Below are positions 2,968 to 44,041 of a DNA stretch of 64,000 nucleotides, one piece after another (positions within the stretch are counted from its first letter, which is position 1; every line of letters begins with the position of its first letter). The stretch covers positions 310,001 through 374,000 of the forward strand of contig NZ_JAKZFR010000001.1 of assembly GCF_022808935.1 (NCBI RefSeq), written 5' to 3'. Below the pieces are notes generated by a model. The model saw only the letters and a program-made list of their open reading frames with translations. It did no database searches and was not told where the DNA came from. The translations under genes were made by a program, and so were the position numbers. Source of the DNA: Geothrix sp. SG200 (GTDB lineage Bacteria; Acidobacteriota; Holophagae; Holophagales; Holophagaceae).

Positions 2968-3495
2968 ATGGCGAGCACCCCGGATCCGCAGGACGCCACC
3001 GCCGCCTACCGGGCGAGAATCCTGGGGTTCCTGGGGGACCGGGATCCGCTGGAGGTGCTCGGCTCGACGGGCGACGTGCTGGCGGGCCTGGTCCGGGACC
3101 ACGCCGGGAAGCGGCTGCAGACCCGGCCCATCGCCGGGAAGTGGACGCCCTGCGAGGTCATCGGCCACCTCTGCGACTGCGAGTGGGTCTACGGCTACCG
3201 CACCCGGCTCATCCTCTGCGAGGAGAACCCGCCCATGCAGGTCATGGACCAGGATCAGTGGGTGGTGGGGCAGCGCCACAACGCGCGCGACCCCCGGGAG
3301 CTCGTCGAGACGTTCCGCGCCCTGCGCCCCCACAACCTGCGCCTCTGGGGGAGCCTCACGCCCGTGGAGCTGGAACGCGCCGGCCTGCACAGCGAGCGCG
3401 GTCCCGAATCCCTGGGCCAGCTCCTGCCCATGCTCGCCGGCCACGACCTCCTGCACCTGGACCAGCTCCAGCGCCTGCTCATGGCCATCCTATAG
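2968..3495 (+). CDS. DinB family protein
   Basis: This 175-residue protein has the DinB/YfiT four-helix-bundle pattern of metal-binding histidines: VIGHLCDCEWVYGYR near the middle and GHDLLHLDQLQRLL near the C-terminus. Members include thiol-dependent S-transferases and many uncharacterised proteins. The ATG at 2968 has GGAGGA upstream; an open frame back to 2704 lies in repeat DNA and is not part of the gene. It converges with a second DinB-type gene at 3996-4499 across a repeat-filled gap. Confidence 0.8.
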   Translation: MASTPDPQDATAAYRARILGFLGDRDPLEVLGSTGDVLAGLVRDHAGKRLQTRPIAGKWTPCEVIGHLCDCEWVYGYRTRLILCEENPPMQVMDQDQWVVGQRHNARDPRELVETFRALRPHNLRLWGSLTPVELERAGLHSERGPESLGQLLPMLAGHDLLHLDQLQRLLMAIL

Positions 3496-3995
3496 CCATG
3501 GATGAACACGGATGCAGGGCCGGAAGAGCATGGGAACCAGTGATGAACGGTGATGAACAGTGATAGGAATTCTTTCATCACCGTCCATCACTGTTCATCA
3601 CCGGTTCATTCAGCTTTCCTGCTGATCGGCTTGGCTCAGCCATGAAAAGCAAGCAACCGCGAATGACGCGAAAGGGCGCGAAACGCGGCGGGGATGGGCC
3701 GCCTGGGCCTTCGGCCCCCAGTCGCGCGAGGCGCGGCTGGCCACACGCGGGGCGGGAATGCCGGCTCCTGAAGGCCGCCAGACCCGCCCCGCGCGTGGAG
3801 GCGGAAGCAGGATCGTTCGCCATTCGCGCGTCCGCAGGGCGATTCGCGTCATTCGCGGTTCGATCATTCCAGGCCGGAAGCCGCCTCCGGCGGGCCCATG
3901 CGGGAAGCTCGCGGCGCGCCATCACCGTTCATCCCCGTTCATCTCCGGCTGAATGATCTTTCATCGGTCTTCATCCGTGTTCATCCGAGGCTGAT
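3496..3995. repeat. Intergenic inverted-repeat element 2 with three concentric shells
   Basis: The whole 500-base gap between two convergent DinB genes is repeat DNA. Three perfect inverted pairs are nested: GGATGAACACGGATG at 3500-3514 with its complement at 3972-3986; GATGAACGGTGATG at 3542-3555 with 3920-3933; and AACCGCGAATGACGCGAA at 3655-3672 with 3843-3860. The innermost pair bounds a 206-bp core homologous to the one at 27193-27398. An additional local inverted pair lies at 3548-3564 and 3587-3603. The 3874-3924 module is shared with element 1. I see no protein-coding gene. Confidence 0.85.
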
Positions 3996-4499
3996 TCAGC
4001 TTTTCGCTTTGGATGCGGCGGCGAGCTGTTCTTCGGTGAGGCCGAAGCGGGGGGCGACGGGGCGGCCGCGGAGGCTGGCCATGAGGTAGAGCTGGCCGCG
4101 GTGGTGGGCCTCGTGCTCGACCATGGCGCGGAGCCACTTCCATGTGGCCATGGAAGCCCCGGCTGGGTTCACGCAGGGGGCCAGCAGGTCCGTGTCCGCG
4201 AGGGTGCCGAAGATGGCCAGGGACTCGGCGTGGCAGCGGTCCGGGTAGGCGCGCACGCCGTCCAGGCCCGCCGCCAAGACAGCCCCGTGGCCCGGGTAGG
4301 TGCTGGGGCGGCCCTGCACGTTCTCCGCGTACATGAAGCGCTCCAGCCCAGCCAGGTGGCGGAACAGGTCGCCGAAGGTGAAGGCCCCGGTCGCCGGCGC
4401 CCACTCCAGATCCTCGGGTGCCAGCGCCTCCAGCACCCGCACCGTGCGGGAGCGGGCGTTGCGCCAGTAGGCGAGGATGGCCTGGAGATCCTGAAGCAT
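3996..4499 (-). CDS. DinB family protein
   Basis: This is a second DinB/YfiT-fold protein of 167 residues. Candidate metal ligands lie in FGDLFRHLAGLERFMY and in the C-terminal motif MVEHEAHHRGQLYLM, which closely matches the family's last histidine pair. The ATG at 4497-4499 has GGAGCCC upstream. Family roles range from thiol transferases to damage-inducible proteins of unknown activity. The C-terminal tail (AAASKAKS) ends at the edge of repeat element 2. Confidence 0.82.
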   Translation of the reverse strand: MLQDLQAILAYWRNARSRTVRVLEALAPEDLEWAPATGAFTFGDLFRHLAGLERFMYAENVQGRPSTYPGHGAVLAAGLDGVRAYPDRCHAESLAIFGTLADTDLLAPCVNPAGASMATWKWLRAMVEHEAHHRGQLYLMASLRGRPVAPRFGLTEEQLAAASKAKS

Positions 4500-4561: not shown

Positions 4562-6532
4562 TTAATTGACCAGCCGCGATCTAATGCGACCCGCCTTTAA
4601 GAAAGATTTTCTGAGGCCTGAAAAAGTCCTATGGCTTATCGAGCGAAGAGGCCCTTTGGGGAAGACCCAGGGCTCTAATTTAATATATATAAATAAAAAT
4701 CCGAGAATGTATACAAGTATTTTAATTATTGGGATGAGAACCGGGTATTTAGTTAAATTTAGATGAGTGATGTAGGAAGAAATTGAATAGGAGATTCCGC
4801 ATATGAATATTATGAAACCACAGTTCAGTAGATTTATGATTTGTTTCAATTTTCTTTTTTGACGCTGTCGCCGGGCCCATTTCTGCTGTAATGCCTCTTC
4901 TTTAAGTGTTTGAATGGTTTGTTCTGATTTTTGAAGTTGCTTAGCGATTGGTTCAATTTGCTTCTCTACAAGTGCTTCGAATTTTTGTGTCGTAAACTCA
5001 ATTATTTCTGGAAGTGTTTTTTCGGATAATGCCTTATCATTAGTGAGTGTAAAATCGGCAATTTCTGAGGAGTGAGCTCTCAATTTGTAATAGGTGTCGC
5101 TATCGATCTTTTCTTTCCTTAAAAGATCATCTAATTCATACTGAACTTGTTCGTTACGGATTGTGATTTTTTCGAGGCAAGATATTGAGTGTGCGAGCAA
5201 GGCATTGTCAATTATTCTGCTGTTCTTGCTCGGGGCCAGTAACCACAGACGATTGATTAACCAATAATCGGTCACAATGGGTGGGAATCCATTAAAGTCA
5301 TCCCCTTCTGCGTTTATAAATGTTCTAACGGCTTTAGCCAATGCGGAATTGTGAGTAATAAAAATTGCAGCGTTTTCGCTAATTTTTTTCGTCAATTTCC
5401 CTTCTCTAAATTGGTAAATTGCTGCAATACAATCTATATCATGTCGATTGGCCGCCAAAGGCCGTTCTCGACCATACTCTTGATTTATTAATTCCTCTAG
5501 TTTTCTTTCATCAATTACATAATTGGGGTCCCGTTGCGGTATATCGATTTGGTCAATGCCCTTTGAGTTGAGAGTAGAAACAAACTCGAGTTTAATTTGC
5601 ATAAGGCCAGCAGTAGAGATTTTTTTACTTCTAGCTGCTCTTAATGCCGTTTTGATTGTTTTAATATTGGTATCATTAAGGTTTTTTGCCGTATCCAAAA
5701 TAATACCAACAACTTCATCTTTGGTTCTGTCGAAAAAAGCAATTTTTGCTTTATATGCGAGCAATAAATTTGTAAGTTCCTGAATTGACTTCTCTTCTTC
5801 GGGAGATGATAATCCAATTAAAGCTAAAATTAATCTTGTATCATAAAGAAATAAACAACTAGTGTAATTTGATTTAAAATCGTTGCAGTTTTCTTCATGG
5901 GTTACGGATTGATATAACAAAAACCCTTGAAAAAAGGAAGAGATGATTTCGAACTCAGCTAAATTATTATCATGAAGGTGTTTTATGAATTGAGCAATCG
6001 GCCATAACTTACCAGTGGTTTCTTTTTTCTTGATTGAGAAATCTTTAATTAGTAGATCATAAGAATGAATTTGTAAGAAATTAATTATTTCGGACATAAA
6101 ATTAAAATTTTCATTAATTTTAATTTCTTTGTCACGGCAAAATGTTATAAAATTGTCCTTGATCGTATCAAATCTTTTGTTGTTCCTGTTGATAGTCTCC
6201 ACTATCTCGGCAGTTCTGATTTTATTCTTTACGACAATAACATTCTCATGCTTTGTTAAAATATTTCTGTCAATTAATTTTACGATTAAACGATCTATAA
6301 TATTTATTGGTAATTCTAGTCCACTTGTTTCAAGTAGTGAAACCCTTACTTGTTCAGAAGTAATATTTTGGGATTGAATTTTTGAAATCGCAATTTTAAC
6401 AAACGGTATCAACATGTCGTAGTAGTCCTGATGCTCAATCATGAAGGAGCGTAGGACTGCGATAGATAACAATCTATTTTTCTCGATTTGGCTTGCAGGA
6501 ATCAATGTATCCCCCGCTTTCTGATAGTTCAA
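4562..6532 (-). CDS. PIN-like nuclease candidate with C-terminal membrane anchor (unknown family)
   Basis: This AT-rich gene encodes about 656 residues in an otherwise GC-rich region, which suggests recent acquisition. Residues 35-105 look like a small winged-helix domain. Residues about 225-400 fit a PIN-like nuclease core: an acidic residue at the end of a strand (FLYD, Asp231), an acidic helix (KDEVVGIIL, Glu273), RHDIDCIAAI with Asp365 and Asp367, and strand-turn IFITHN (393-395). The last position is Asn where active PIN enzymes usually have Asp. A coiled coil (about 515-560) leads to two hydrophobic segments (565-588 and 595-617) and a basic tail. The start is uncertain: TTG at 6532, TTG at 6505 with GGGGGA upstream, or ATG at 6442. 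It stands alone; a defence or toxin role is only an inference. Confidence 0.8.
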   Translation of the reverse strand: MNYQKAGDTLIPASQIEKNRLLSIAVLRSFMIEHQDYYDMLIPFVKIAISKIQSQNITSEQVRVSLLETSGLELPINIIDRLIVKLIDRNILTKHENVIVVKNKIRTAEIVETINRNNKRFDTIKDNFITFCRDKEIKINENFNFMSEIINFLQIHSYDLLIKDFSIKKKETTGKLWPIAQFIKHLHDNNLAEFEIISSFFQGFLLYQSVTHEENCNDFKSNYTSCLFLYDTRLILALIGLSSPEEEKSIQELTNLLLAYKAKIAFFDRTKDEVVGIILDTAKNLNDTNIKTIKTALRAARSKKISTAGLMQIKLEFVSTLNSKGIDQIDIPQRDPNYVIDERKLEELINQEYGRERPLAANRHDIDCIAAIYQFREGKLTKKISENAAIFITHNSALAKAVRTFINAEGDDFNGFPPIVTDYWLINRLWLLAPSKNSRIIDNALLAHSISCLEKITIRNEQVQYELDDLLRKEKIDSDTYYKLRAHSSEIADFTLTNDKALSEKTLPEIIEFTTQKFEALVEKQIEPIAKQLQKSEQTIQTLKEEALQQKWARRQRQKRKLKQIINLLNCGFIIFICGISYSISSYITHLNLTKYPVLIPIIKILVYILGFLFIYIKLEPWVFPKGPLRSISHRTFSGLRKSFLKAGRIRSRLVN

Positions 6533-27113: not shown

Positions 27114-27507
27114 GAAAGGCGCGAAGAAAAGCGCGAAGGCTGAAAGGGGTGTCCTTCCTGGTTATCGGCCTGACTCAGCCAAAAGCGCTAGCAACCGCGA
27201 ATGACGCGAAAGGGCGCGAAACGCAACGGAGTTCGGCCGCCTGGGCCTTCGGCCCCCAATCGCGCCATGCGCGATTGGCCACACGCGGGGCGGGATTGCC
27301 GGCTCCTGGAGGCCGCCGGGCCCGCCCCGCGTGTGGAGGCGGAAGCAAGGCCGTGCGCCGTTCGGGCGCCCGCAGGGCGATTCGCGTCTTTCGCGGTTCG
27401 ATCATTCCAGGCGGAAGCAAGCCGATGGCCAGGATGTCCTTTTTTGACTAAGCATCCATTCGCGGTCTTCGCGCGGTTCTTCGCGCGCTTCGCGTTCCGC
27501 CTTTTCT
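27114..27507. repeat. Intergenic inverted-repeat element 3, homologous to element 2
   Basis: This 394-base gap between convergent genes is filled by a repeat. The 206-bp core at 27193-27398 is bounded by AACCGCGAATGACGCGAA (27193-27210) and its complement with one mismatch (27381-27398). It is clearly homologous along its length to the core at 3655-3860. An outer shell of different sequence, built from GCGAAG-type units, pairs GCGCGAAGAA at 27119-27128 with 27477-27486. I see no gene. Confidence 0.85.

Positions 27508-43964: not shown

Positions 43965-44041
<77 letters not shown>

Follow-up and report, generated by a model that had tools for sequence, protein, structure and literature searches.

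Nested non-autonomous mobile elements as the probable content of a concentric inverted repeat between two convergent Geothrix genes

The ~500 bases at positions 3496-3995 of the window (the whole 64,000-nucleotide stretch of DNA that was analysed), which lie between a convergent pair of DinB-family genes, from stop codon to stop codon, in a genome of the soil bacterium Geothrix, are best explained as a composite of nested non-autonomous mobile elements that include an IS1595-type MITE, a reading to which we assign a probability of about 0.9. The full account, in which nested insertions of this MITE and of word elements derived from a GxxExxY-bearing element were followed by a deletion that fused the middle shell, appears likely as well, if with somewhat lower confidence. 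In the likeliest general view, the composite represents mobile DNA that is tolerated in intergenic slots and turns over fast between sister species; any effect of it on transcription would be secondary.

Layout of the gap and the IS1595-type layer

The closest named species to the genome under study are G. paludis, G. terrae, G. campi and G. fuzhouensis. Because the stop codons of the convergent genes bound 3496-3995, the composite occupies the whole gap, as a previous sequence-only reading had noted. The three perfect inverted pairs listed in that reading were all recovered, namely 3500-3514/3972-3986 (15 nt), 3542-3555/3920-3933 (14 nt) and 3655-3672/3843-3860 (18 nt), and a fourth, absent from its list, lies at 3548-3564/3587-3603 (17 nt), within the hairpin at 3534-3607. 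The four perfect pairs of at least 14 nt in positions 3400-4099 compare with a mean of 0.008 and a maximum of 1 in 500 dinucleotide shuffles; given these values and the copies found elsewhere in the genome, the pairs are not confined to this locus and are far more frequent than expected by chance. The features of the locus, with a second MITE of the window for comparison, are as follows.

2670-2892, + strand: intact family C element, its word arms made of CACCGATTTC, upstream of the left DinB_2 gene
2968-3495, + strand: DinB_2-family gene, left convergent neighbour (open reading frame; PF12867, E 1.3e-15)
3500-3514, + strand: left outer word arm, GGATGAACACGGATG (inverted-pair search; genome copies of the outer word)
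3534-3607, no strand: self-contained word hairpin B, AACCAGTGATGAACGGTGATGAACAGTGAT and its inverse (also at the orthologous G. paludis site, without the MITE)
3618-3641, + strand: left terminal inverted repeat of family A, IS1595-type, CCTGCTGATCGGCTTGGCTCAGCC (2 mismatches to the consensus; same end in autonomous copies)
3655-3672, + strand: left word arm of family A, AACCGCGAATGACGCGAA (comparison of copies)
3699-3804, no strand: family A core, P1 (3699-3703/3800-3804) around hairpins at ~3705-3717, 3718-3740 and 3741-3798 (covariation)
3843-3860, - strand: right word arm of family A, TTCGCGTCATTCGCGGTT (comparison of copies)
3865-3883, no strand: fusion junction of family A to family C, CATTCCAGGC followed by CGGAAGC, with GGAAGC homology (comparison with intact A copies and with the intact C at 2670-2892)
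3875-3943, + strand: right half of family C, core end and word arm CATCACCGTTCATCCCCGTTCATC (90% identical to the intact window copy)
3957-3990, - strand: right outer word arm, TTTCATCGGTCTTCATCCGTGTTCATCCGAGG (alignable to one arm of this genome's GxxExxY element)
3996-4499, - strand: DinB_2-family gene, right convergent neighbour (PF12867, E 5.3e-17)
27157-27433, + strand: second family A MITE of the window, with both ends and the target duplication GTGTCCTT/ATGTCCTT, within CGCGAAGG word arms

The block at 3610-3881, which we denote family A, has five more near-full-length copies in this genome with 87-89% identity, along with many copies that are decayed or have lost the core; among the 31 relatives searched, the family is restricted to the genus Geothrix. 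The aligned copies have common ends, CCTGGTTATCGG(CCTGACTCAGCC), and of the 47 Geothrix genomes, 38 contain this end pattern, whereas the reversed control gave almost no matches. The left end of the window copy agrees with the consensus at 22 of 24 positions. One pair of such ends, 1,765 bases apart, surrounds an intact transposase (PF12762, E 4e-32; NCBIfam IS1595, E 1e-58), and a PF12762 search combined with an end scan located four complete autonomous copies that possess family A ends, a DDE_Tnp_IS1595 gene and perfect 8-bp duplications (AAAAGCTT, TATCTTTA, AAAATGGT and TAGTTCTT). IS1595 elements usually generate target duplications of this length (PMC8101967). Among 19 gene-less family A MITEs fetched from relatives, the 8-bp flanks were identical in 12 and matched at 7 positions in 2, with the chance of a match of 7/8 or better being 0.00035; three copies in the present genome (L003, L006 and L008) also show target duplications matching at 7/8. 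These MITEs are ~250-350 bp long and lack a transposase gene, the open reading frames within them being only mechanical, on hairpin sequence. Taken together, these observations suggest that family A has been moved by an IS1595 transposase. Accordingly, the earlier statement that the element is not a simple MITE is valid for the whole composite, with the amendment that one of its layers is an IS1595-family MITE.

The search for a PF12762 transposase came up empty in the present genome, which is 98% complete, and found one in 14 of the 47 congeners. The MITE layer here therefore looks like a relic, and the missing transposase looks like a property of relic copies, not a disproof of IS1595 origin. 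The window copy (3618-3874) retains its left end at 3618-3641 and lacks the right terminal repeat, so that its own target duplication is unreadable.

Several other observations pertain to the neighbourhood. An AT-rich open reading frame of 656 aa (4562-6532), which had no match in Pfam and PADLOC searches, adjoins the right DinB gene, and the flanking DNA has ~35% GC against 70% for the genome. The same flank of this gene is AT-rich (35-42% GC) in several other Geothrix species too, with a different sequence, which suggests an insertion hot spot. The coding sequence of the right DinB gene contains a ~65-base insertion (GGAGGCTCCGACTCCGCG...CAGGCGGAGG), another small palindromic repeat, in G. 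fuzhouensis (L098) and in L105. Elsewhere in the window, an 18-nt perfect inverted pair (43888-43905/43974-43991) adjoins and overlaps a tRNA gene (43968-44041). Searches of plasmids yielded no match to the composite and a single weak match to a word, in a gammaproteobacterial plasmid; literature searches by word sequence returned nothing relevant, and those on Geothrix with repetitive and intergenic found none.

Nested insertions and the middle shell

We compared orthologous sites across six species, including G. paludis, G. terrae, G. campi and G. fuzhouensis. One such site (L002) is empty in G. terrae and G. campi, contains the ACAGGATTAAC word hairpin alone in G. paludis, and in the present genome has family A inside that hairpin. 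At another (L003), G. paludis retains the outer two shells around a different inner module. At a third (L006), the genes abut at CTAG in three species, and four different inserts are found in this genome, G. paludis, G. campi and G014. The insert of G014 in this slot (L145, contig C1) is 273 bases long, has AGTGCCTAACAAAACCCC at its ends, shows a TTAG duplication and is related to none of families A-D. At the DinB locus itself, hairpin B is present and family A absent in G. paludis, and GATGAACACCG arms enclose an intact family C element in G. campi.

The same arrangement recurs at other positions. By an unbiased count, 10 of 23 family A copies are enclosed by a larger inverted repeat (each P<0.01), and in genome G007, seven of nine MITEs reside in AATCCTGTTAATCC words, and the word itself contains the duplication (TAACAGGA or TCCTGTTA). 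Because MITEs of relatives are found inside word hairpins, where the word often contains the target duplication, we conclude that concentric shells arise by insertion into insertions. Successive insertion, which had been offered earlier as one possible origin of the shells, is thus borne out by sites that are empty, outer-only or outer-plus-inner and by related MITEs with 8-bp target duplications inside word hairpins. Some composite insertions, such as L007, exceed the difference from the empty site that is expected from the element alone; turnover therefore also involves deletions and recombination.

The middle shell has a different history. Positions 3873-3933 are part of a separate repeat, family C, which has an intact copy at 2670-2892, and a junction at ~3874 joins the right-truncated family A to this segment, with GGAAGC in common. 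We interpret the junction as probably the result of a deletion by microhomology between GGAAGC sequences. The perfect middle pair does exist; however, because its left arm is that of hairpin B and the right one that of a half-deleted family C element, it was not one original pair and is in part coincidental.

The core of family C is flipped between intact arms in G. paludis (L323) relative to this genome (L128), and recombination therefore acts on these repeats, as expected between arms. In one region (L166, G000:C6:240000-254000), family C copies in a single orientation occur approximately every 2 kb over 10 kb, and a GxxExxY gene sits in one of the intervals between two copies. In four loci (L121, L123, L126 and L323), long runs of G and C occupy the place of the strong family C hairpin, which probably reflects an error of sequencing or assembly there.

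Word arms and GxxExxY genes

The outer arms (GGATGAACAC) and hairpin B, with arms at 3534-3564/3577-3607 (31 nt, 87%), represent a second class of element, in which 9-10-nt words form inverted arrays. In this genome, the outer word GATGAACACGGATG occurs 16 times at no more than one mismatch, and it was found in 12 of the 167 sampled Acidobacteriota genera; the reversed control gave 0 matches in both searches. At C1:769.6-770.1 kb of this genome (L168), the outer-shell word forms inverted arms round a lone GxxExxY gene (TIGR04256, E 1.6e-40; PF13366, E 6.6e-40), the start of which (ATGAACACGGAT...) lies within an arm, and in G. paludis (L379), the hairpin B word forms the arms of another GxxExxY gene. 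Inverted word arms were detected at 10 of the 17 GxxExxY genes tested (8/15 and 2/2), or at 9 of 16 when L168 and L381, which are orthologous, are taken as one.

The association extends across Acidobacteriota, Alphaproteobacteria, Bacteroidota and viral contigs, with different arm words (GATGAACACGG, GTGATGAACGG, CGCGAAGG and CACAGAGG). The GxxExxY gene is flanked by CGCGAAGG arms between fabD and fabG in Sphingomonas, by CACAGAG arms in Bernardetia and, after radA, in Bacteroides, by CACACGGATTCG arms in Treponema, and by CACGAAGG or GATGAACACGG arms in two viral contigs. Each arm pair from outside the phylum scores above all 1000 null intervals drawn from its own locus, and the insert is absent from the matching sites in Sphingomonas paeninsulae and Parabacteroides distasonis. 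The GxxExxY proteins keep the D, the E-x-K and other invariant residues. In viral contigs, single queries retrieved 0 GxxExxY genes and a profile retrieved two; the search of phages found none.

On balance, these sequence comparisons favour a GxxExxY (PD-(D/E)XK) mobile element as the source of the word hairpins, which would be its gene-less derivatives. As there is no GxxExxY gene in 3496-3995, the word elements of the window are at most such gene-less derivatives. No target duplication was seen for word elements, and a word scan found pairs with spacings of 200-320 bases that have no GxxExxY gene between them (L354 and L355), so that not every wide word pair encloses one. Comparison of GxxExxY with solved structures gave one weak match (2f8l, E 0.006), the AlphaFold model computed from two sequences was unusable (pLDDT 34.6), and literature searches by the GxxExxY name and Pfam accession found no function for the protein family. 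The GxxExxY-bearing word element is seemingly an undescribed small mobile gene in several bacterial phyla. Many word elements can fold into a four-way junction, and, more tentatively, the 9-10-nt word hairpins of distant bacteria could be the non-autonomous form of an element class that encodes GxxExxY as a predicted mobility nuclease, perhaps one acting on an extruded hairpin or four-way junction.

Alternatively, the word arms might be served in trans by another transposase, with GxxExxY being hitchhiking cargo. Such a role would agree with the 7 of 17 GxxExxY genes that have no word arms, with the many gene-free word hairpins and with the fact that GxxExxY is no known transposase. However, the lone gene is tightly enclosed, with arms that sometimes overlap the start or stop codon, and this configuration recurs in several phyla with different words, so we consider the cargo explanation unlikely.

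Structured cores, insertion history and known systems

Families A, C and D (the last at L018 and L148) have a common core architecture despite their differing sequences, with P1 closing one long and two short hairpins. In 22 copies of the family A core, 97.4% of the cells pair, and 13 pairs are changed on both sides, compared to 4.8 +/- 1.3 in shuffles (0/500) and 0-4 in slid controls. This covariation and the very stable predicted RNA fold would be compatible with a structured RNA, or an mRNA 3' element such as a bidirectional terminator or stabiliser, selected between the convergent genes and with the shells as RNA helices. However, stems that are retained as DNA hairpins or repaired as palindromes also predict covariation, and the strand test for RNA gave a weak asymmetry between G-U and A-C in stems (23 versus 15); six copies of family C had too few changes. 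Furthermore, the site in close relatives is empty or has unrelated content, copies are found in both orientations, and no promoter or terminator consensus was detected in 3400-4100. In Rfam 15, only a tRNA, and nothing in the composite, scored above the gathering threshold; the matches below it were to eukaryotic miRNA and snoRNA models, matched by hairpins. Of the modular structured RNA proposed in the sequence-only reading, the covariation supports the structure of the core, which may be one of RNA or of DNA, and selection for an RNA element appears improbable.

Still less probable is the generation of the shells by replication template switching and palindrome repair with no insertion. The imperfect, quasi-tandem word arms would fit such a process, and the inverted family C core of G. 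paludis indicates that recombination acts; however, the 8-bp duplications of family A, its common transposase-bearing parent and the clean empty sites all point to insertion. The chance that these are REP/BIME elements moved by a REP-associated tyrosine transposase (RAYT), which the BIME-like mosaic clusters of intergenic palindromes might bring to mind, is slight, as Y1_Tnp (PF01797) is unmatched in this genome (5 of 14 control genomes match), and a RAYT origin of family A is refuted by its ends and duplications, which fit IS1595 instead.

Under the nested-insertion model that we favour, the outer arms and hairpin B would be gene-less word arrays from a GxxExxY-only mobile element. Family A would be an IS1595-family MITE, with its characteristic ends, 8-bp duplications, own word arms and four-stem core; in relatives, such MITEs are often found in word hairpins, which produces concentric shells. 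In the present genome, a deletion, probably at GGAAGC, would have removed the right end of family A and fused it to the right half of the neighbouring family C, with the middle shell as an accidental outcome. An odd-looking repeat thus becomes a legible insertion history, which offers two leads: IS1595 MITEs with exchangeable structured cores that land in word hairpins, and a function that GxxExxY, a family present across phyla, may have. If word elements are indeed moved by GxxExxY, this would give a source to a broad class of intergenic palindromes in bacteria.

It is already known that small repeats inserted into one another form clusters, and IS1595 elements are known too; what is new is that they are combined here with word hairpins and with cores that are structured and exchangeable, and the link between GxxExxY and word elements would be new, if confirmed. 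Family A resembles IS1595-family MITEs (ISXO2-like; prokaryotic Merlin relatives) in its short terminal inverted repeats common to a transposase-bearing copy, its 8-bp target duplication in the copies of relatives and its gene-free interior. It differs in that this interior, made up of word arms and a four-stem core, bears no relation to the transposase gene, in that the same ends hold different interiors here, and in that the window copy is without its right end. With REP/BIME elements and their RAYT, the composite has in common the intergenic palindromes and mosaic arrangement; the ends and size differ, and RAYT was not found in this genome. The outer-shell and hairpin B words are the inverted arms of genes for GxxExxY proteins (TIGR04256; PF13366, PDDEXK_3) in this genome and in G. 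paludis, whereas the word elements of the window are gene-less. The BOX, RUP and SPRITE clusters of Streptococcus pneumoniae are similar in being small intergenic repeats that insert into each other and form composite clusters (PMC10969869); their sequences are different, and the Geothrix layers combine an IS1595-type class with a GxxExxY-associated class.
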